Position numbers and translations under genes: made by a program. From assembly GCA_903875575.1 (NCBI GenBank), contig CAIQWJ010000074.1:62001-126000 (forward strand): DNA of 64,000 bases. The letters are read 5' to 3'. This DNA is from an uncultured Acidobacteriia bacterium. GTDB lineage: Bacteria; Acidobacteriota; Terriglobia; Bryobacterales; Bryobacteraceae. Shown here piece by piece: positions 21,704-31,068 of this stretch. The stretch's first letter is position 1, and the number at the start of each line of letters is the position of its first letter. Under the pieces are notes generated by a model. It was not told where the DNA came from and searched no databases. It saw nothing but the letters and a program-made list of their open reading frames with translations.

Positions 21704-22411
21704 CTACGGCGTCTGCATCGCCGCGAGTTCGGCCAGATCCAGACGGCCGGTGTAGATGGCCATGCCGAGGGCGCAGTTGATGTTCATGGCGGTGAGGGCG
21801 CGGATATCGTCCATGGTGGTGATGCCGCCGGCGGCGGTGATCTCCATGTCGGTGGCGGCGCGCAGGCGGGCGAACCAATCGAGATCGGTGCCCTGCATCA
21901 TGCCTTCCTTATCCACGTAGGTGCAGAGGAAGCCCGAACAATAGGGCTCCATCTGCCGGATCACTTCTTCGGCGGTGAAGTTCGTCGCTTCCTGCCAGCC
22001 TTTGATAGTGATGCGGCCAGCCTTCGTGTCGAGGGCAAGAACGATCTTCTCGCGCCCCACTGCGTCGACCAGGCTTCGGAGGAAGGCGTGATTCGGACCT
22101 TCGGCATTGAAGGCCGAGGTGCCGACGATGACGCGGAAGACACCCTGGGCCAGGAGAGCCTGCGCGCGGGCCACGGTGCGGACGCCGCCGCCAGCGCGGA
22201 TGACGGCCTTCGAGGCCAGCATTTCGACGAGGTCGTCATTGGCACCGCGGCCCATGGCGGCGTCGAGGTCGATCACCTGGATCTGGGGGAACGCGGCGAA
22301 CTTGCGCAGCATTTCATCGGGGCTGTCGCCTTCGAGAGCCTTCTCGCGGCCCTGCACCAACTGGACGACTTTGCGATCCATCAGATCGATACAAGGGACG
22401 ATTTTTGCCAT
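21704..22411 (-). CDS. hisA: HisA: ProFAR isomerase
   Basis: This TIM-barrel protein (235 aa) catalyses the Amadori rearrangement of ProFAR to PRFAR in histidine synthesis. The two catalytic Asp are visible: Asp9 in VPCIDLMDRKVV and the one in LALDTKAGRITIKGW. Phosphate-binding loops are present (AGGGVRT, GTSAF, AAGGITTMDD). Some segments (TYVDKEGMMQGTDL) differ from the usual enterobacterial enzyme. It starts immediately after the hisF stop codon and is the last gene of the operon. Confidence 0.9.
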   Translation of the reverse strand: MAKIVPCIDLMDRKVVQLVQGREKALEGDSPDEMLRKFAAFPQIQVIDLDAAMGRGANDDLVEMLASKAVIRAGGGVRTVARAQALLAQGVFRVIVGTSAFNAEGPNHAFLRSLVDAVGREKIVLALDTKAGRITIKGWQEATNFTAEEVIRQMEPYCSGFLCTYVDKEGMMQGTDLDWFARLRAATDMEITAAGGITTMDDIRALTAMNINCALGMAIYTGRLDLAELAAMQTP

Positions 22412-23176
22412 TTAGTGAGTTTTCCTGACCGGTATGCCTTCGCGATCGAGATACTCTTTGAGATCGTCGACCGTGTAGGTGCCGTAATGAAATATGGAGG
22501 CGGCGAGGGCGGCATCTGCTTCGCCTTCGGTGAGTACTTTGAGGAAGTGCTCGGGCTTGCCAGCGCCGCCGCTGGCGATGACCGGCACTTTGGTGGCGCG
22601 AGACACGGAGCGCGTGAGTTCGCAGTCGAAGCCTGTCAACACGCCATCGGTGTCCATCGAAGTCAGCAGGATCTCGCCGGCTCCGAGGGCTTCGCCGCGC
22701 GCGGCCCATTCGACGGCGTCCATCCCTTCATCCACGCGGCCGCCTTTGGTAAAGACATGCCACTGACCGGGGGCGTGACGGCGCGCATCGATGGCGAGCA
22801 CGACTGCCTGTGCGCCAAATTCGTTGCTGAGTTCGGTGATGAGTTCCGGGCGGCGCACGGCCGAGGTATTCACGGAAACTTTGTCGGCACCGGACATGAG
22901 GATGAGGCGGGCATCGGCTACAGAGCGAATGCCGCCACCGACGGTGAGCGGAATGAAGACCTGGCGGGCAGTGCGGGCGACGACGTTGGCCATGATGTCG
23001 CGGGCGTCGCTGGAGGCGGTGATATCGAGGAAGACGAGTTCGTCCGCACCCTGCTGGTTGTAGCGGTCGGCGAGTTCCACGGGGTCACCTGCGTCACGCA
23101 GGTTGACGAAATTGATGCCTTTTACTACGCGGCCCGCGGTGACATCGAGACAGGGGATGATGCGTTTGGCGAGCAT
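22412..23176 (-). CDS. hisF: HisF: imidazole glycerol phosphate synthase, cyclase subunit
   Basis: The ATG at 23176 overlaps the hisH stop as TAATG. The product ([20 protein letters not shown]) has catalytic Asp11, the second Asp in VLAIDARRH, and the phosphate loops GGGIRSV and [11 protein letters not shown]. HisF closes the imidazole ring using ammonia delivered from HisH through the barrel. The 254-residue length is typical. Confidence 0.95.
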
Positions 23177-23772
23177 TATGTCAGCTCCACAAAGTTGCGC
23201 ACGATGGCGAGACCGAGCGGTCCGGATTTCTCGGGGTGGCACTGGACGCCGAAGGTGTTGCCGGATTCAAGCACGGCGGTGTAAGGAATCGAGTAAGTGC
23301 AGGTCGCGGCGGCCTGTTCCACAACCGGTACGTAATAGCTGTGCGCGAAGTAGAGATGCGGGCGTTCCGGCAGGCCTTTCAGGAGGCGCGAGGGGCGGAC
23401 CAGATCGAGCTGATTCCAGCCCATGTGGGGGACGCGTTCTTCGATGGCGAAACGCTCCACCTTGCCGGGGAAGATACCGAGACCGGGTTGGCCTGGGGCC
23501 TCGGCGCTCGATTCAAAGAGACCCTGAAGGCCGAGGCAGATTCCGAGGAACGGGACGTCGGCTTTGATGCGCGCGATGAGAGTTTCGCGGACGTTCATTT
23601 CATCGAGAGCGCGCAGCATCTGGCCGAAGTGGCCGACGCCGGGCAGGATGATTTTGGGGGCGCGTTCGAGACCGACGGCGTCGCGGACGAGTTCGTAGGG
23701 GGCGCCGATTTCGTCGAGCGTGTTTTGGACCGAGCGCAGGTTGCCGGCACCGTAGTCGAATATCGCGATCAC
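23176..23772 (-). CDS. hisH: HisH: imidazole glycerol phosphate synthase, glutaminase subunit
   Basis: The start was placed at the GTG at 23772, which overlaps the hisB stop as GTGA and gives the family N-terminus [15 protein letters not shown]. Class I glutamine amidotransferase residues are present: the nucleophile in [12 protein letters not shown] and the His and Glu in QCHPEKSG. HisH supplies ammonia to HisF. The 198-residue length is normal. Confidence 0.94.
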
Positions 23773-24362
23773 AACAACCCCTTGGTGGAGGGCAGGAGGT
23801 CTTTCAGTCTGGCGTCGGTGGAGGCTGCGTAGCGCATGGCGCGGGCCCAGCATTTGAAGATCGCCTCTATCTTGTGATGATTGGAGCGACCGTAGAGAAC
23901 TTTGGCGTGCAGGTTGGCACCGGCGTGGTGCACGAAACCGTCGAAGAAGTCCGTGAGGAGTTCGGTCTGGAGATCGCCCACGAGGCGGACTTTCACCAGA
24001 TCTTTGTAGACCAGCGCGGGACGGCCGCCGAGATCGACTGCGACGACGGCGAGAGTCTCGTCCATCGGCAGAACGAAGTAGCCGGCGCGGTTGATGCCTT
24101 TGCGGTCGCCGAGAGCCTTGGCGAAGAGCTGACCCATTACGATGCCGACGTCTTCCACGGTGTGGTGCTGGTCGACGTCGAGATCGCCATCGGCTTTCAG
24201 CTTGAGGTCAAAACCGCCGTGCTTTGTGAAGAGCTCCAGCATGTGGTCGAAGAAACGAATTCCGGTGGAGATCTCGTAACGGCCTTTGCCTTCGATGCGA
24301 AGTTCCGCGGCGATGCGCGTTTCCTTCGTGTTGCGTTCGATCTTAGCTGTGCGTATCGCCAA
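23769..24362 (-). CDS. hisB: HisB: imidazoleglycerol-phosphate dehydratase (monofunctional)
   Basis: A TTG start at 24362 is preferred: GGAGG lies about six bases upstream, and translation from there gives 197 residues, the normal size. It overlaps the HAD gene by 20 bases. The signature metal-binding regions are present ([31 protein letters not shown], and [11 protein letters not shown] near the end). There is no N-terminal phosphatase domain as in enterobacterial HisB, so histidinol-phosphate phosphatase must be encoded elsewhere; the HAD gene upstream is a candidate. Confidence 0.94.
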
Positions 24363-25038
24363 TGACGGCCTCCAGTGAGTTGATATCTTCGAGCACTGCG
24401 ATAGCGCCTTCGTTGCGCAGCAACTGCACGAGTTCGTCGCGTCGCGGCGAAGTTGGGGCGGCAATCCCGATGAAGGGCACGCCGGCGGCGCGGGATGCGC
24501 GGGCGTCGTCTACCGTGTCGCCCAGGTACCAGGCTTTACCGTGTGGCACCTGCTCGCGGATCTTGTGCAACCCTTCGGGGTGGGGTTTGGCGTGCGAGAC
24601 GTGATCCACACCGACGACCGGATGGAAGATCTCTTTCGCGAAGCGGTCGAGAGTGAGCTGGGCTTCCCAGCCGAGGCGGCCGGTGAAGATGGCGAGGGTG
24701 TGATTCGCGGCGAGGCGATCGAAGAGACCTTCCGCTGCGAGCCAGCGCTCCCGCAGAATGAGGCCGCCGGCGTTGCCGTTTTCCCGATCGCCGAGGAAGA
24801 TTTTCTGGAAGCGTTCGACAACATCGTCGTAGGCGACTTCTTCTCCGAGTTCCTGAATCATGCGATGGGAGAGCTTCCAATCGTCGTTGAAGCCGCCGCG
24901 ATTTTTCCAGCTCTGGACATCGTCATTGGTCGGCTCAGTGCCGGTGAAGTGCAGGACTGTAGCCTGGATGGCGGCGCGGTAGGATTCGCTGACGTCCACG
25001 AGGACGCCATCCATGTCGAATACGATCAGGTTCTTCAC
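24343..25038 (-). CDS. HAD-family phosphatase in the his operon (candidate histidinol-phosphate phosphatase)
   Basis: The start is the GTG at 25038, which overlaps the upstream repeat ORF as GTGA and has GGAG eight bases before it. The 231-residue protein has HAD motif I ([17 protein letters not shown]), motif II (IFTGRLG), a motif III Lys in SHAKPHPEG, and motif IV ([16 protein letters not shown]), with a helical cap of subfamily IA. HAD enzymes of this type hydrolyse small phosphate esters. Its place between hisC and hisB, in an operon that otherwise lacks a histidinol-phosphate phosphatase, points to that role; this is inference. Confidence 0.85.
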
Positions 25039-25649
25039 CGGGAGGTCTCCAGTCGGGTGGGGGTGAGAGTGGTTTCGCCGTGGGCGTCGGCGGGGGTTGC
25101 GTGGCCGGGGGGGCGCGTGGCTTGTTGCCGCGTGCTGGATGCGGCCGCGCGTGCGTGGGTAATGGTGCGGGCGGTCTGTGCGCGCTGGACGGCGGGGCCG
25201 CGCGGGTTCGCGGCGGAGGAGGCCGCAGGAACGAAATTGGGTGCGATCGCTCCCTTGCGGTCGCGGCTCATAATGGCGTACCGTGTTATCGGAATCGGTG
25301 CGGATAGTGTCGTTGCGTGCGTTACGGGAGTGAGTGCGGACAGTGTAGGTACGCGCGTTACGGGAGTCAGTGCGGATCGTGCAGGTACGTGCGTTACCGG
25401 AGTGAGTGCGGATAGCGTAGGTACGTGCGTGACCGGAGTCAGTGCGGATAGCGTAGGTACGTGCGGGACCGGAATCGGTGCGGATAGTGTCGTTGCGTGC
25501 GTGACCGGAGTCGGTGTGTATTGTGCAGGGACGCGGGTGACCGGAGTTGGTGCGGATAGCGCAGGTACGTGCGTAGCCGGATTCGTTGCGGATAGTGTCG
25601 TTAAGTGTGTTACCGGAATCGGGCCGGATAGTGTCGTTGCGTGCGTCAC
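25035..25649 (-). CDS. Possible Thr/Pro/Ala-rich repeat protein inside the his operon (204 aa)
   Basis: An open frame runs from a GTG at 25649, overlapping the hisC stop as GTGA, to a TGA at 25037-25035, overlapping the HAD start as GTGA. The first two-thirds consist of ten 12-residue units of the form THVPTLSALTPV; the rest is Ala/Arg/Pro-rich without recognisable domains. Coupling to both neighbours by four-base overlaps and the exact 36-base period without indels favour translation. Against it, other frames of the repeat are also open and I know no homologue. It could be a real linker-like protein or a minisatellite that happens to be open. Confidence 0.4.
   Translation of the reverse strand: MTHATTLSGPIPVTHLTTLSATNPATHVPALSAPTPVTRVPAQYTPTPVTHATTLSAPIPVPHVPTLSALTPVTHVPTLSALTPVTHVPARSALTPVTRVPTLSALTPVTHATTLSAPIPITRYAIMSRDRKGAIAPNFVPAASSAANPRGPAVQRAQTARTITHARAAASSTRQQATRPPGHATPADAHGETTLTPTRLETSR
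25285..25644. repeat. Ten tandem 36-bp repeats (minisatellite) between hisC and the HAD gene
   Basis: Ten consecutive units of exactly 36 bases begin at 25285, 25321, 25357 and so on; the last ends at 25644, two bases before the hisC stop codon. On the + strand each unit resembles GTKACCGGARTCRGTGCGGA followed by a variable TAGYGTMGKTRCGTGC part. Two sub-types alternate irregularly, one ending TCGTTGCGTGC and the other AGGTACGTGC. There are no indels between units, only substitutions. Confidence 0.95.
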
Positions 25650-26698
25650 CAGACCTTCTCCAGTTCTTCGAGGACACGGGCGGCCTGTTCGCGCGTGCCT
25701 ACGGTGATGCGGACGCCGCCGGGGATTTCGTAGCTGCGATCGCGGACCAGAATCGCCTGTTCGCGGAGGGCGTCGCGGATCTCGACCGCACGGTCTCCGA
25801 AGTAGCCGAGGACGAAGTTGGCGGAACCCGGTACGTAGTCGATGCCCAGCTTTTCGAGTCCGACTTCCAGCATCTCTCGGGCGGCCAGGGCTTCCGAAAC
25901 ATAGGTTTCGATGAAGCCGGTATCGGCTACGGCTGCTTCGGCGGCTATGGCGGCGAGCGCGTTCACGCTGTAGGGCGACTGCGCCTTATGCAGATACTTC
26001 ACGTTGGCGGCCTGCGAGAAGAGGCAGCCCATGCGGAGAGCGGCCATGCCGTAAACCTTCGAGAAAGTCCGACTAACGAAGAGCTGCGGATACTTCCAGA
26101 TCAGGTTGAGCGCGGTGACGCCGAAGAATTCGTAATAGGCTTCGTCGATCAGGACCGCGGCGTGGGGAGCGGCTTTGAGGATCTGTTCGATCGCCGACAG
26201 ATTGATAGCTGTTCCGGTCGGGTTATTGGGGTTTGCGATCAGGATGGCGCGGGTGCGCGGCGTGATGGCGGCCAACAGTTCATCGAGCGGAAACTTCAGA
26301 GCGGGCGGCTGGTAATCGACTTCCACGATCTTCGCGCCCGCCACTTCGGAGTAGAAGCGGTACATGGCGTAAGAGGGACGGAGGGCGATCACTTCGTCGC
26401 CATCATCGACGTAAGTGTTGACCAGAACCTGAATGGCCTCATCGGTCCCATTGGTGAGCAGGAGCTCATCGGGCGAGACTCGGAAGAAGTTCGAGAGCGC
26501 GGTCTTGGCGCGGGCGTAGTCGGGATAGACGGTGAGCAGGCCGGCGTCGAGAGTTTCCTGGAGGCGGCGGATCACCCAGGGCGAGCAGCCGACGGTGTTC
26601 TCATTGAAATCCAAACGGAGCTTATCGAGACGGTTGCCGGTGGGCGGCGAGTACGGCGCCATGCCCAGAACGGCTTTGCGGGGTAACAACTCAGACAA
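25646..26698 (-). CDS. hisC: HisC: histidinol-phosphate aminotransferase
   Basis: The likely start is the TTG at 26698, which follows GAGGTG and overlaps the hisD end by eight bases; a TTG four codons earlier is possible. It is a fold-type I PLP enzyme: LRLDFNENTVGCSP at the N-terminus, NPNNPTG, DEAYYEF with the cofactor-binding Asp, and the PLP Lys in SRTFSKVYGMAALRMG. About 350 residues, normal for the family. It transfers an amino group from glutamate to imidazole acetol phosphate. Its stop codon abuts the 36-bp repeat array. Confidence 0.94.
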   Translation of the reverse strand: MSELLPRKAVLGMAPYSPPTGNRLDKLRLDFNENTVGCSPWVIRRLQETLDAGLLTVYPDYARAKTALSNFFRVSPDELLLTNGTDEAIQVLVNTYVDDGDEVIALRPSYAMYRFYSEVAGAKIVEVDYQPPALKFPLDELLAAITPRTRAILIANPNNPTGTAINLSAIEQILKAAPHAAVLIDEAYYEFFGVTALNLIWKYPQLFVSRTFSKVYGMAALRMGCLFSQAANVKYLHKAQSPYSVNALAAIAAEAAVADTGFIETYVSEALAAREMLEVGLEKLGIDYVPGSANFVLGYFGDRAVEIRDALREQAILVRDRSYEIPGGVRITVGTREQAARVLEELEKVW

Positions 26699-27932
26699 GG
26701 CGCACCTCAACAGAACGAGCGTGGGCTTCGAGACCTTCGGCTCTCGCGAGCGTGGTGACGGACGGCGCGATCTTTTTCAGGGCGCGGGCGTCGAGTTGCT
26801 GCACAGAGATGACCTTGACGTAGTCGGCGGCTGAGAGACCTCCGCGCAGACGCGCCACACCGTTGGTCGGCAGAACGTGATTGGGGCCGGAGGCGTAATC
26901 GCCCGCGGCTTCCGGACTGAACGGGCCGACGAAGATGCTGCCGGCGTGGCGGATCTTCGGGATGAGCTCTTCGTGGTAAATCGCGAGGTGTTCCGGCGCG
27001 AAACGGTTGGAGAGTTCTACGGCTTCATCGAGCGAATCGACAATGATGATGGCGCTGTTCTTGTCGATGGCCTTGCGGGCTACCAGCGCGGTGGTGAGGG
27101 TTGAGAGTTGCTTCTCGATTTCCTTCGCTACTTTGTCAGCAAGTTTGCGCGAGGTGGTGAGGAGGATGGCGCTGGCGTCGGTATCGTGTTCGGCCTGGGC
27201 GAGCATGTCGGCGGCGAGGAAGCGCGCGTCGGCATCGGCGGCGATGATCAGAATTTCCGTTGGGCCCGCGACAAAGTCGATGCCGACTTCACCGGCGAGC
27301 AGGCGCTTGGCCGCGGCTACATAGATGTTGCCCGGGCCAACTATGCGGTCTGCGCGGGGCACGGTTTTGGTGCCGTAGGCGAACGCGGCTATCGCCTGTG
27401 CGCCTCCCATCTGGAAGACCTGATCGAGACCGAGGCGGTGGGCGACGCCGTAAACTTCGTCGACCGGCTTTGGGCACGCCACACATATATTCGGAACGCC
27501 GGCTACCTGCGCGGGAACCGCCGTCATGATGAGAGTGCTGGGCAGCGGGTAGCGGCCGGCCGGAATGTAGGCACCCACCGTGTCGAGAGGGCGAACGACC
27601 TGACCGAGTTTGTGGCCGGGACCGTAGCTACTGAAGGACTCTTTGGGGAGTTGCTTCTGCGCGTAACGACGAACGTTGTGAGAGGCTACTTCGACGGCGT
27701 CAATAAAGGCCGGAGTCAGGCGATTGGCGGCGGTGCCGAGTTCGGCCACCGGCACGCGCACGGACTTGCGGGTCAGGCCGTCGAACTTGCGGGCGTACTC
27801 CATCAGGCCTTTGTCGCCATGCTTGCGGACGGCTTCGAGGATGGGGCGCACTATCGCTTCGGCTTCCGTCATGCGGGCCGAGCGGCGGGCGAGGAGGCGG
27901 CCGGTGTCGCTGGATTTGAGGATGCGGATCAT
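26691..27932 (-). CDS. hisD: HisD: histidinol dehydrogenase
   Basis: The 413 residues have the family features: GAYIPAGRYPLPSTLIM, VGPGNIYVAAAKRLLAG, AGPTEILIIAADADARF, QAEHDTDASAILLT with the catalytic Glu-His pair, and FAPEHLAIYHEE. It performs the last two NAD-dependent oxidations from L-histidinol to L-histidine and needs zinc. It lies 12 bases after hisG. Confidence 0.96.
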   Translation of the reverse strand: MIRILKSSDTGRLLARRSARMTEAEAIVRPILEAVRKHGDKGLMEYARKFDGLTRKSVRVPVAELGTAANRLTPAFIDAVEVASHNVRRYAQKQLPKESFSSYGPGHKLGQVVRPLDTVGAYIPAGRYPLPSTLIMTAVPAQVAGVPNICVACPKPVDEVYGVAHRLGLDQVFQMGGAQAIAAFAYGTKTVPRADRIVGPGNIYVAAAKRLLAGEVGIDFVAGPTEILIIAADADARFLAADMLAQAEHDTDASAILLTTSRKLADKVAKEIEKQLSTLTTALVARKAIDKNSAIIIVDSLDEAVELSNRFAPEHLAIYHEELIPKIRHAGSIFVGPFSPEAAGDYASGPNHVLPTNGVARLRGGLSAADYVKVISVQQLDARALKKIAPSVTTLARAEGLEAHARSVEVRLV

Positions 27933-27944
27933 TTTGAGGTCACC

Positions 27945-28817
27945 CTACATCACTATTTTGTTGAGCGGGTATTCGACGATGCCTTCGGCTCCTGCCGCCT
28001 TGAGGCGCGGGATGATGGAACGCACGGTGGATTCGTCGAGGATGGTATTTACAGCCAGCCACTCGCCATCGCTCAGATGAGAGACCGTGGGGCGCTTGAG
28101 AGCGGGCAGGACGCCGAGGACGGCTTCGAGACTGTCCTTATGGACGTTGAGCATGAGACCGACTTTGCCGAGGGCAGCGATGGCGCCATCGAGCAGGAGT
28201 TTCAGATCCTGAAGTTTGGAGCGCTTCCAGGCGTCTTCCCAGGAAGCGATATTTGCTATTAGCTGGGTGTTGGATTCGAGGACGGTTTCGACGATGCGGA
28301 GCTTGTTGGCGCGCAGGGAGGAGCCGGTTTCGGTGACTTCGACAATGGCATCGGCGAGCACAGGGGGCTTGACTTCAGTGGCACCCCAACTGAATTCCAC
28401 CTTGGCTGTTACGCCATTCTTTTCGAGATAGCGCTTCGTTGTGGCGACGAGTTCGGTGGCGATGGTCTTGCCTTCGAGATCCTTCGCGCAGTTGATGTCG
28501 CTTGATTCGGGAACAGCGAGGACCCAGCGGACTTTGCCGAAGCTCTGCTTGGCGTAAATGAGGTCGGCCACGGCGACGACGTCGGCACCAACTTCGGAGA
28601 CCCAGTCGAGACCTGTGAGGCCGGCGTCGAGAATGCCGTCCTGAACGTAGCGGGCCATTTCCTGAGCGCGGATGAGCATGCACTCGATTTCGGGATCGTC
28701 AATGGAGGGGAAGTAGGAGCGCGAACTGGTGCTGATGTTGAAGCCGGCGCGGCGGAAGAGATCGACGGTGGCGTTTTCGAGACTACCTTTGGGGATACCG
28801 AGTTTGAGCTTAGCCAT
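27945..28817 (-). CDS. hisG: HisG: ATP phosphoribosyltransferase, long form
   Basis: The start ATG overlaps the hisI stop as TAATG. At 290 residues this is the long, hexameric form with a C-terminal regulatory domain (from about 215: [20 protein letters not shown], ending with [20 protein letters not shown]), so it needs no HisZ and is probably inhibited by histidine. The catalytic part shows [30 protein letters not shown] and a PRPP-loop-like [16 protein letters not shown]. It carries out the first step of the pathway. Confidence 0.95.
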
Positions 28818-29200
28818 TACTTTGTTCCTCCGTAGACGGCGTTGGGGTCATAGGTGGGTTTTTCGGATTCGACCCACTCGTTGTTTTCGAGTTTGCGATA
28901 GAAGCAGCTTTCGTAACCGGCGTGACAGACGCCGGGGCCGATGGCGTCGACGGTGATGAGGAGGGTGTCGTTATCGCAATCGTTGAAGATTTCTTTGACG
29001 ATGAGGCGGTTGCCGGAGCTTTCGCCTTTCATCCAGAGTTTGTTGCGGGTGCGGCTATAGAAGGTGACGCTGCCGGTTTCGAGGGTTTTGCGCCACGCCT
29101 CTTCGTTCATGAAGCCGAGCATGAGGACGCGGTGCGAAGTGGCGTCCTGAACGATGGCCGGGAGGAGTCCGTCTAGTTTTGAGAAGTCTAGTTTCGTCAT
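28817..29200 (-). CDS. hisI: HisI: phosphoribosyl-AMP cyclohydrolase
   Basis: A 127-residue single-domain cyclohydrolase with the family pattern: [35 protein letters not shown], and metal-binding residues in DCDNDTLL and [12 protein letters not shown]. There is no C-terminal HisE (pyrophosphohydrolase) domain, and no separate hisE was found in this window. It is the first structural gene after the attenuator. Confidence 0.95.
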
Positions 29201-29257
29201 TTTGTGTTGCCGCCGCTGGGCTGGTGTTTCGCTCTCGGGGAGGAGGGCGAGGGCAAG

Positions 29258-29285
29258 AAAAAAGCCCGCCAGTGTTGCGGCGGGC
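29258..29285 (-). terminator. Attenuator terminator of the his operon
   Basis: On the minus strand GCCCGCC-(8-base loop)-GGCGGGC is followed by six T. It lies 28 bases downstream of the leader-peptide stop and before hisI. The 5' arm (CGCCCGC, 29286-29280) can instead pair with GCGGGTG inside the leader peptide (29329-29323), giving a seven-pair antiterminator that excludes the terminator. Confidence 0.9.
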
Positions 29286-29313
29286 GTCCTTTCGTTTGAA
29301 TCGTTAAATCAAA

Positions 29314-29367
29314 TCAGGCCAGCACCCGCGCGGTTGTGGAGCGATGGTGGTGGTGATGTAAGGCCAT
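29314..29367 (-). CDS. hisL: HisL: his operon leader peptide with five consecutive His codons
   Basis: The frame reads M-A-L-H-H-H-H-H-R-S-T-T-A-R-V-L-A-stop (17 residues). The five His codons occupy 29344-29358. The peptide ends 28 bases before a rho-independent terminator, the layout of classical transcription attenuation: when charged His-tRNA is scarce the ribosome stalls at the His codons and an alternative hairpin prevents termination. A possible -10 box (TACACT) ends about eight bases before the ATG and no Shine-Dalgarno is evident, so the transcript may be leaderless. Confidence 0.9.
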   Translation of the reverse strand: MALHHHHHRSTTARVLA

Positions 29368-29473
29368 AAAGGGATAGTGTAGCAAATGTGGGTTTATGGC
29401 CACAGATGAACCTGGACAAGGCAAAGACACTTAGGGCATTTGATGGGGTCATGGGTTGCGGTTTGAGCGGCAT

Positions 29474-30166
29474 TCAGGCTGCTTTTTTCGGATTATCGGG
29501 TGTGATGCCGGGGAAGTGTCGGTCCTGGTATTTGAAGCGGTCACGATCTGTCGGGTTTTTGCGGTGGTGGCGGTAGGTGTAGCGCTCGATTGCTTCGAGC
29601 GAAAAAACGAATCCGTCGTCGGAGGGTTGCCAGGGTAAGTCCCTTGTTTTGCTGAACTCGTAGAGGATGCGGGCTTCTTCGAGTTCGGCGAGATGCTTCG
29701 CTTCCCGGTCGGCCTGGGCCTGTTTGAGCTGGGCCATGAACCTTTCGAAGGATTTCTGGATGCGTTGCTCGTAAAGCGAGAGGCGTTCGAGAGTCTCGGC
29801 ACGATTGGCGACGGAGGCAGCTTCGATGACGGCGGCCTGGATTTCAGGATGGTCGGAATGGAAGAGTTTTTGGGTGCCATCGAAATGGCCGAGCATGACG
29901 ATGTTCTGGCAGTGGGCCGGGATGGTTTGGAGACGCCATGCCTGGTTGATGGCTTGACCGGCCAGGAAGGTTTCTTCTTCGCCGATTGGGGCTAGTGATG
30001 CCAGGAAGTTGTTGAAGAAGAGGGTGTAGCGTTCGCGGTCTTCTTCGGCGATGAGGAGAGTTTTGCCTGTCAGGCCGTGACGGTACGCGTTGAGACAGGT
30101 CTTTGCTTTGGCCTCCGGGGTCTTTGGGCCCGGGAGTTTTCTTTCGATGGAATGAAGGTTGTTCAT
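29474..30166 (-). CDS. Hypothetical protein with N-terminal NAYRHGLTG motif (230 aa)
   Basis: The N-terminus (GPKTPEAKAKTCLNAYRHGLTGKT) carries a KxxxxxNAxxHGLTG motif that I associate with a multi-copy family in acidobacterial genomes, often near other accessory genes; its function is unknown. The middle is helical and charged (ERLSLYEQRIQKSFERFMAQ), possibly a coiled coil, and the C-terminus is basic with RYTYRHHRKNPTDRDRF. There is no signal peptide. It lies upstream of the his leader on the same strand. Confidence 0.65.
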   Translation of the reverse strand: MNNLHSIERKLPGPKTPEAKAKTCLNAYRHGLTGKTLLIAEEDRERYTLFFNNFLASLAPIGEEETFLAGQAINQAWRLQTIPAHCQNIVMLGHFDGTQKLFHSDHPEIQAAVIEAASVANRAETLERLSLYEQRIQKSFERFMAQLKQAQADREAKHLAELEEARILYEFSKTRDLPWQPSDDGFVFSLEAIERYTYRHHRKNPTDRDRFKYQDRHFPGITPDNPKKAA

Positions 30167-30423
30167 GCCCTACGAGTAACATGCGGGTCGAGCAGGACTG
30201 GCGCATTTATTTTGCATGCTGTTGATTTCAGGGGAGATATATTTCAGAAATCGACCGCAACGCATTTCGCGGTACTGAAACGTGTCGAGATAGGAGGTCG
30301 GCGGGAGCGCGGCAGGGTGATCGTAAACGGGCCCGTCTCGTTGACCACACTGTACCCCGCCGGAAAGCCGAAAGAGCGCCGGATCGGGGTGGAGAGGTTG
30401 GGGGTGCGCCGCGCCGGTTGAGA

Positions 30424-30768
30424 TTAGAAATTCGACAAGTAGTAGATTCCGCCAGATAGTTCGAGGCCGGATGTCGTCAGGCGCAGGAAGCGCCGGACAA
30501 TTTCTCCCGTGGAGTATCGCTGCTGCGGAATGATCAGGATACCGGAGTGGGAACGGCCTCGCTCCAGCCACTCGCAATGAAGTGCCGCGAAGTCACGGGT
30601 ATTGGCGCTTACGAGAATCCGGCCCTGCGCGCTCGCAAGCATGAGTTGGGATTCGTCGTCACGAGCCTTCATTCCGGAGTCGAGGAAAGTCGTCACGTCA
30701 ATAGCGTGGCTACGCAAGGCTGCGACGAGCCGATGCTGGGCGGAATCCTCGTCGAAATAGAATTTCAC
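30424..30768 (-). CDS. DUF5615 (PIN-like) putative toxin
   Basis: The N-terminus MKFYFDEDSAQHRLVAALR and the central ILVSANTRDFAALH patch match the DUF5615/PIN-like family, with the acidic residues retained (Asp6, Glu7, Asp8 and the Asp of TRDF). The gene follows its DUF433 partner by three bases. Probably an RNase toxin by family analogy. Confidence 0.75.
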   Translation of the reverse strand: MKFYFDEDSAQHRLVAALRSHAIDVTTFLDSGMKARDDESQLMLASAQGRILVSANTRDFAALHCEWLERGRSHSGILIIPQQRYSTGEIVRRFLRLTTSGLELSGGIYYLSNF

Positions 30769-30771
30769 GTG

Positions 30772-31068
30772 TCAGGGCCGAGACGGCAGACGGGAGGAGC
30801 GAACACCCTCGTCGTAGGCCTGCTCCTCGGCTTCGATGTCGGCGTCGATCTCCTGCTTGTTGGCGTGATAAAAGGCCAGACTGGCGTAGACCTGCGCAAG
30901 AGAAAGAGGCGGGCGGTCCGCCGCTATCTCTTCAGGGGATAGGCCCCTGTTGTTTTCGATGGCGATGGTTCGCACGCACAGGCCGGTTCCGGCGATAATC
31001 GGGCGGCCACCGCGCAGGGCGGGGTCGCGCGTTATCAGGGCACCGATTTCGGCGAAGGCGACGGGCAT
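30772..31068 (-). CDS. DUF433 protein, putative antitoxin
   Basis: The 98 residues contain the DUF433 core (ALRGGRPIIAGTGLCVRTIA, then LSPEEIAADRPPLSLAQVYASLAFY) with a helix-turn-helix-like middle part. The C-terminus (QEIDADIEAEEQAYDEGV) is acidic, as often seen in antitoxin tails that contact the toxin. Directly upstream of the DUF5615 gene on the same strand. Confidence 0.75.
   Translation of the reverse strand: MPVAFAEIGALITRDPALRGGRPIIAGTGLCVRTIAIENNRGLSPEEIAADRPPLSLAQVYASLAFYHANKQEIDADIEAEEQAYDEGVRSSRLPSRP

Follow-up and report, generated by a model that had tools for sequence, protein, structure and literature searches.

Upstream of hisI in this acidobacterial DNA, a short open reading frame with a run of His codons is followed by a hairpin and a run of T, and a -10-like element lies close before its start codon. 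The question raised by this locus is whether these parts form a ribosome-mediated attenuator of the his operon and, if so, whether translation of the leader peptide begins on a leaderless transcript. Our analysis makes this combined reading highly likely, and such a device would very probably let the soil-type bacterium switch the his genes on only when histidine is short.

Leader, terminator and his genes in the window

The initial annotation had described a 17-residue leader with five consecutive His codons, ending 28 bases before a 7-bp GC hairpin with six T upstream of hisI, and this description matches the sequence base for base. On the minus strand, the leader ATG occupies positions 29367-29365 and the TGA positions 29316-29314, with the 28 bases that separate the stop from the hairpin at 29313-29286 (Table 1). 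In the window (the whole stretch of DNA that was analysed, 64 kb in length), MALHHHHHRSTTARVLA was the only ORF of up to 60 aa that showed at least five His in six codons on either strand, and the same search on 20 dinucleotide shuffles of the window yielded none. The fold of the leader region, in addition, gave a z of -3.2 against shuffles.

The genes hisI-G-D-C-HAD-B-H-F-A are all encoded on one strand, so a single leader precedes most of the pathway. The HAD-family hydrolase is possibly a histidinol-phosphate phosphatase; its listed ORF begins upstream of 25065 (minus strand), and the boundary given in Table 1 is provisional. The true starts of hisB, hisH, and hisF are probably located downstream of the listed TTG, ATG, and GTG, respectively. 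Between hisC and the HAD gene (around 25065-25650, minus strand), short similar units (e.g., ARTYAIRTDSG) follow one another in the spacer and form an apparent tandem repeat within the his operon.

Table 1. Positions of the proposed control elements and of the his genes in the window.
Feature	Position	Strand	Remarks
Extended -10 element TGC-TACACT	29376..29384	(-)	ends 8 nt before the leader ATG
Leader peptide ORF MALHHHHHRSTTARVLA, 17 codons and TGA	29314..29367	(-)	sequence reading; probably leaderless
His codons 4-8 (CAT CAC CAC CAC CAT), proposed stalling site	29344..29358	(-)	sequence reading
Antiterminator 5' strand GCGGGTG, in the last leader codons	29323..29329	(-)	own-arm pairing beats permuted arms
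Antiterminator 3' strand CGCCCGC, overlapping the terminator 5' arm	29280..29286	(-)	folds
Intrinsic terminator hairpin GCCCGCC-loop-GGCGGGC	29264..29285	(-)	8 pairs counting a G-U
Terminator T-run, six T (TTTTTT)	29258..29263	(-)	sequence reading
hisI, phosphoribosyl-AMP cyclohydrolase, first structural gene	28817..29200	(-)	NCBIfam NF000768, 148 bits, cut-off 126
hisG, ATP phosphoribosyltransferase	27945..28817	(-)	TIGR00070 over cut-off
hisD, histidinol dehydrogenase	26691..27932	(-)	TIGR00069 over cut-off
hisC, histidinol-phosphate transaminase	25646..26710	(-)	TIGR01141 over cut-off
HAD-family hydrolase between hisC and hisB	24343..25065	(-)	TIGR01548, 124.7 bits, below cut-off 140.2
hisB, imidazoleglycerol-phosphate dehydratase	23769..24464	(-)	NF002111 over cut-off, match from residue 37
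hisH	23176..23853	(-)	TIGR01855 over cut-off, match from residue 29
hisF	22412..23242	(-)	TIGR00735 over cut-off, match from residue 23
hisA-like isomerase	21704..22411	(-)	best match TIGR00007, 178.6 bits, below cut-off 228.95

Conservation of the leader and terminator among relatives

Of 150 genomes searched in the window's family, 142 gave a HisG match. From these, 130 loci were taken (the 12 others being seven gene fragments, two contig ends, and the genomes G080, G121, and G125), and four that lacked hisI or its start were set aside, which left 126 usable loci. A His-rich leader, defined here as an upstream ORF with at least three His in six codons, was found in 119 of the 126, a terminator by strict scan in 116, and both in 111; several of the loci missed by the strict scan present longer or imperfect hairpins that can be read there. 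Outside these 126, G080, G121, and G125 all showed the leader and, 8 or 9 nt ahead of its ATG, a TATACT. In genus g11, three loci (L104, L116, and L122) presented no His run, and one of them, L122, keeps TATACT and an ATG at the right spacing, as if regulation was lost. An SD-like motif preceded hisI in 36 of the 126 family loci.

At the level of the phylum, HisG matches were obtained in 153 of 247 genomes, and the loci read were an initial 30, 28 of them outside the family, plus a further 37, with G332 (68% HisG identity) among those left out. The leader was present in 27 of the 28 first loci outside the family, the exception being L138 of family f53. Where HisG was 63-68% identical, 15 of 17 loci showed a leader, and 14 of these 15 carried TAnnnT 6-11 nt before its start. 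The families with a leader were nine (f1, f2, f15, f24, f33, f44, f46, f58, and f62). No leader was found in the seven loci with a HisG identity of 57-59% (families f28 and f72) nor in the two loci of family f20. The comparison with relatives that had been proposed for the His run and the hairpin thus came out in favour of both, inside the family as well as outside it.

Among 13 loci with a distant HisG (32-37% identity), some short His-rich ORF was detected in 10 as a raw count, and only L316, L318, and L322 showed by eye a hairpin and T-run after the His ORF. In these three, the His leader lies directly before a distant hisG (33-37% identical). A -10-like box at leaderless spacing was seen in L322 only, and L316 and L318 have none; the phylum thus contains other His leaders, not all of which look leaderless.

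In a separate collection of named relatives, a His-rich ORF was found in 70 of 80 loci, one of them (L197) probably spurious, and five of the ten misses had too little upstream sequence. The titles of these records were mostly Acidobacteria, Bryobacterales, or Bryobacteraceae, together with a single record each of Vicinamibacteria and Thermoanaerobaculia and several that bear the names of other phyla, so that the description of the operon as acidobacterium-like fits its best-matching named relatives.

For the analyses that follow, the family, phylum, and named collections were pooled after removal of identical 120-nt upstream stretches, with near-identical ones kept and with G080, G121, G125, and the 37 later phylum loci left out. 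Leader and terminator were both present in 190 of the resulting 207 non-duplicate loci, and by scan the other 17 lacked one or the other. Across the leaders, CAT was used 512 times and CAC 373 times, and 170 of the 190 leaders mix both codons, which argues that the run is preserved as amino acid rather than as DNA. His density is the main thing kept among the leaders, and the remaining residues vary.

In a quick HisG tree of 204 rows, in which 83 of the 201 inner branches are open, the leader was present throughout. The rows lacking it need 14 changes and comprise, among others, the three-row clades L104/L116/L122 and L207/L212/L233; the label for absence of a leader (18 of the 204 rows) overstates the losses: L213 has a leader, its upstream sequence having been dropped as a duplicate, L131 is cut by a contig end, and hisI of L093 is only partly aligned. 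Two loci labelled Acidimicrobium and Ferrithrix (L206 and L211) also carry a His leader, with HisG 79% and 77% identical to that of the window, and fall inside the acidobacterial family in the tree; they represent either a transfer of operon and attenuator or mislabelled bins.

Start of the transcript and pairing of the leader tail

The TACACT at 29381-29376, with TGC directly before it, is separated by exactly 8 bases from the leader ATG, and it was on this spacing that the initial annotation had suggested a leaderless leader. A generic scan of 28800-30200 found no two-hexamer sigma-70 promoter, and the promoter of the window is recognisable only as an extended -10 and by its conservation in relatives. 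When spacing was counted from the in-frame ATG nearest the His run, a choice in which promoter sequence played no part, TAnnnT was found 8, 9, and 10 nt before the leader ATG in 88, 53, and 20 of 179 loci (a locus can be counted more than once), against 5, 3, and 4 of 1957 other ATGs of the same regions. At 7 nt, the control ATGs (15/1957) were as well supplied as the leader's other spacings. With the start chosen by the motif instead, 182 of the 190 leaders presented TAnnnT at 6-11 nt, 72 of these as exact TATACT. The box was preceded by TGn in 121 of the 182, and a -35-like hexamer stood at matching spacing in 63, compared with 20 of 182 in a shifted control, so the boxes look like promoters. 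Part of the sequence upstream of the leader promoter (window 29395-29500) recurs at five other places in the genome with 73-92% identity, as a dispersed repeat.

SD-like four-mers were found before the leader in 18 of 179 loci, compared with 140 of 179 before hisG. Pyrimidines make up 80-86% of positions -3 to -1 of the leader (80% at -1), and because they dominate there, the RNA most likely begins with the A of the leader AUG; a 5' UTR of 1-3 nt is possible as well, since an ATG 8 nt after the -10 would be at +3 with a 6-nt discriminator. The leader thus combines a -10 about 8 nt before the start codon with no SD, the pattern taken here to mark leaderless genes. In the accessible part of PMC3160421 (Zheng et al. 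2011), TA-like signals located about 12 bp ahead of the start are interpreted as leaderless, and leaderless genes appear there in all three of the Acidobacteria listed. No acidobacterial start-site data were found in the literature searched. On the position of these boxes and the rarity of SD-like motifs, the suggestion that the his leader is leaderless, with the RNA starting at or near its AUG, is well supported.

The alternative that attenuation is right and the leader is not leaderless, its RNA starting further upstream and its translation being leadered and SD-independent, seems unlikely to us. It agrees with the outcome of the generic promoter scan, with the eight of 190 leaders in which none of the in-frame starts is preceded by TAnnnT at 6-11 nt, and with L316 and L318, distant His leaders that precede another hisG type and have no box. 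However, it does not predict the sharp TAnnnT peak at 8-9 nt, the TGn and -35-like hexamers that make the boxes promoter-like, or the scarcity of SD-like motifs before the leader.

As for termination, the segment GCGGGTG inside the leader had been proposed to pair with the 5' arm of the terminator as a mutually exclusive antiterminator, and in the window the pairing GCGGGTG:CGCCCGC is possible with one G-U. In the stalled state, modelled with the 3' arm still unmade and the ribosome edge 12 nt past the first base of the last His codon, the window RNA folded into the antiterminator (-19.3 kcal/mol). Placing the ribosome at the stop gave the terminator instead (-17.7 kcal/mol). The full-length RNA at equilibrium is also the terminator (-25.0 kcal/mol), so antitermination must be kinetic. 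Antitermination by timing is the same in known attenuators.

The position of the pairing segment is shared by relatives. In 153 of 190 loci, the start of the best helix falls 8-24 nt ahead of the last base of the stop codon (32% with shuffled tails). When a ribosome is placed on the last His codon, the fold pairs 4 nt or more of the arm with the tail in 169 of 190 (67% with shuffled tails); 59 of the 190 leader tails beat 95% of their own shuffles. Measured back from the end of the stop codon, the last His codon starts at a median distance of 36 nt, a geometry that, with ribosome footprint sizes taken from general knowledge, places the paired segment just past a ribosome stalled at that codon and under one at the stop.

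Tails and arms also fit each other locus by locus. The duplex energy of each tail with its own arm, compared with permuted arms, gave a z of -12.5 for all loci (n = 180), under a permutation that ignores shared ancestry. The loci of the family (n = 111) gave -6.5 and those from outside it (n = 26) -4.5, likewise uncorrected for ancestry; in each of the three sets, none of 3000 permutations was as low as the own pairs. Controls with one partner reversed or shuffled gave z values of -1.2 to -2.1, and neighbouring segments -0.9 and +2.6. An ungapped best-helix version of the permutation test gave a z of 6.6 for all loci and was not significant inside the family (17.04 vs. 16.75, sd 0.19). The leader tail therefore covaries with the terminator arm, which supports ribosome-mediated attenuation, and the mutually exclusive antiterminator of the initial annotation is upheld at the sequence level by the folds, the position of the helix, and this covariation with its controls.

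A protector-type hairpin (1:2) is present in the MFE fold of the window. Pairing between the His run and the tail exceeded that of shuffles (p ≤ 0.05) in just 13 of 186 loci, and a conserved protector of this kind was consequently dropped, although the window can form one. Without a conserved pairing of His run and tail, the attenuator may work with two states. The claim that the locus holds the full logic of attenuation is therefore borne out as to its parts and their conservation, and is slightly too strong in that no conserved pause or protector hairpin was found and the histidine response is inferred.

Two further alternatives deny attenuation altogether. The His-rich ORF might encode a functional small metal-binding peptide, with the his genes and the terminator nearby by coincidence; poly-His does bind metal ions and the ORF is conserved, but it is mainly the His density that is kept among otherwise variable peptides, 190 of 207 loci have the ORF together with his genes and a terminator, and the nucleotides of its tail covary with the terminator arm, all of which leave this explanation very improbable. 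Slightly less probable still is that the hairpin simply ends transcription coming from upstream, that the His run is a product of chance, and that the his promoter is located downstream. Intrinsic terminators are indeed common; nevertheless, the window shuffles produced no such ORF, the arrangement recurs in those same 190 loci, and the distance from the last T-run to the hisI start has a median of 14 nt in the 126 family loci, leaving little room for another promoter.

Proposed mechanism and comparison with known systems

In the proposed leaderless attenuator, RNA polymerase would start at the A of the leader AUG or a few bases from it, and this 5'-terminal AUG would serve a ribosome for initiation without a Shine-Dalgarno sequence. 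With charged His-tRNA in ample supply, the ribosome would pass the five His codons, reach the stop, and cover GCGGGTG; the 5' arm GCCCGCC could then pair with GGCGGGC, and transcription would terminate at the T-run before hisI. With charged His-tRNA scarce, the ribosome would stall on the His codons, and the exposed GCGGGTG would pair with CGCCCGC before the 3' arm is made, so that no terminator would form and hisIGDC-HAD-BHFA would be transcribed. The sequence comparisons establish the parts themselves, their conservation, the covariation of tail and arm, and the spacing of the -10; a single transcript for all these his genes, its exact start site, the stalling, the termination, and the response to histidine are predictions.

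A broader proposal, plausible to us and a little short of probable, is that the leaderless his attenuator is old and widespread in Acidobacteriota, predating the parting of at least nine families and lost in others; that it is a minimal two-state device with no conserved protector, in which loading at the 5' AUG couples ribosome and polymerase; and that other lineages may have acquired it together with the his operon. The related families without a leader weaken this proposal somewhat.

The hisL system of Escherichia coli and Salmonella has, like the window, a His-run leader, a terminator before the first his gene, and a mutually exclusive antiterminator. In enterobacteria, the leader is preceded by a 5' UTR that contains a ribosome binding site, and a pause hairpin forms; the leader of the window, in contrast, appears to be leaderless, and a protector hairpin on the His run is not conserved. 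The hisL peptide is 18 aa long with seven consecutive His, as given in the available part of PMC3896937. Leaderless leader peptides have been described by RNA-seq in S. lividans (LeuL, TrpL, IlvL, and others; accessible part of PMC8079986), and the mycobacterial polycysteine ORFs are a further case, as cited in the portion of PMC9031893 open to us. As far as those portions go, the leaderless attenuators of Actinobacteria share with the window the lack of a 5' UTR, the amino-acid codons and, in several cases, a hairpin with a U-rich terminator, and differ in the amino acids and the phylum concerned; in addition, the Streptomyces starts come from RNA-seq, whereas the acidobacterial his start is deduced from the position of the promoter.

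In Firmicutes, comparative genomics has proposed candidates with 3-5 consecutive His codons, a terminator, and an antiterminator ahead of his operons in the Bacillus cereus group, Eubacteriales, and Erysipelotrichales (17 genomes), which the available text of PMC9413887, unlike our reading of the window, does not describe as leaderless. A His leader before hisZ/hisS paralogs of bacilli is reported in PMC2965389, and in the accessible part of that study almost no predicted attenuator with a function is attributed to Acidobacteria. Within the literature searched, no acidobacterial his leader was found, most subscription papers being outside our reach and an earlier prediction being possible. The mechanism is classical, and leaderless attenuators are already known in Actinobacteria; it is the phylum and the leaderless his version that are new, as far as the literature searched reaches.

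A comparison with Rfam 15 gave no match at the gathering score, either for 28500-29900 of the window or for 20 chosen loci that included distant ones. The Thr_leader family (RF00506) matched weakly across the whole leader (20.3 bits, E 0.58), and this identity was rejected, as the gathering score is 55 and the peptide has a His run; we regard the match as a resemblance of layout at chance level.

If the proposed attenuator is right, the phylum has a concrete control device for one amino-acid operon, with about 190 example loci. Since most loci, across diverged families, keep the leader start about 8 nt downstream of a -10, they offer a natural test of leaderless initiation in the phylum, and also of whether leaderless loading replaces the pause hairpin. 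The breadth over nine families, together with the leaderless start, makes the system worth a short study.

Scans of the same genome around matches to trpE-like, leuA-like, and ilvB-like genes and pheS revealed one attenuator candidate, before ilvB. Both trpE matches lie inside long open frames whose starts may be beyond the scanned part, and the two Trp-containing ORFs found in that scan are inside such a long open frame. The ilvB candidate (L251, on the reverse strand of contig 73 of G000) is a leader containing PVVSITVVVVSGPV, located between 296 and 194 nt ahead of the ilvB family match and followed by GGCCATCAGC...GCCGATGGCC and a T-rich run, with GGAGG before an internal ATG; it is a probable branched-chain attenuator, and as an SD-led leader it would provide an internal contrast to the leaderless his leader of the same genome.

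The pattern TATACT-N7-9-ATG occurred 33 times in the genome, compared with 19 times for the reversed pattern, and no other leader with a run of amino-acid codons was found in the 30 of these 33 loci that were read. Finally, two small adjacent ORFs are located at 30424-30768 and 30772-31068 of the window (30424-31068, minus strand), neither of them with an NCBIfam match, which by eye resemble a toxin-antitoxin-type pair. The ORF at 30772-31068 starts 9 nt after a TATACT box and may, by this spacing, also be leaderless.
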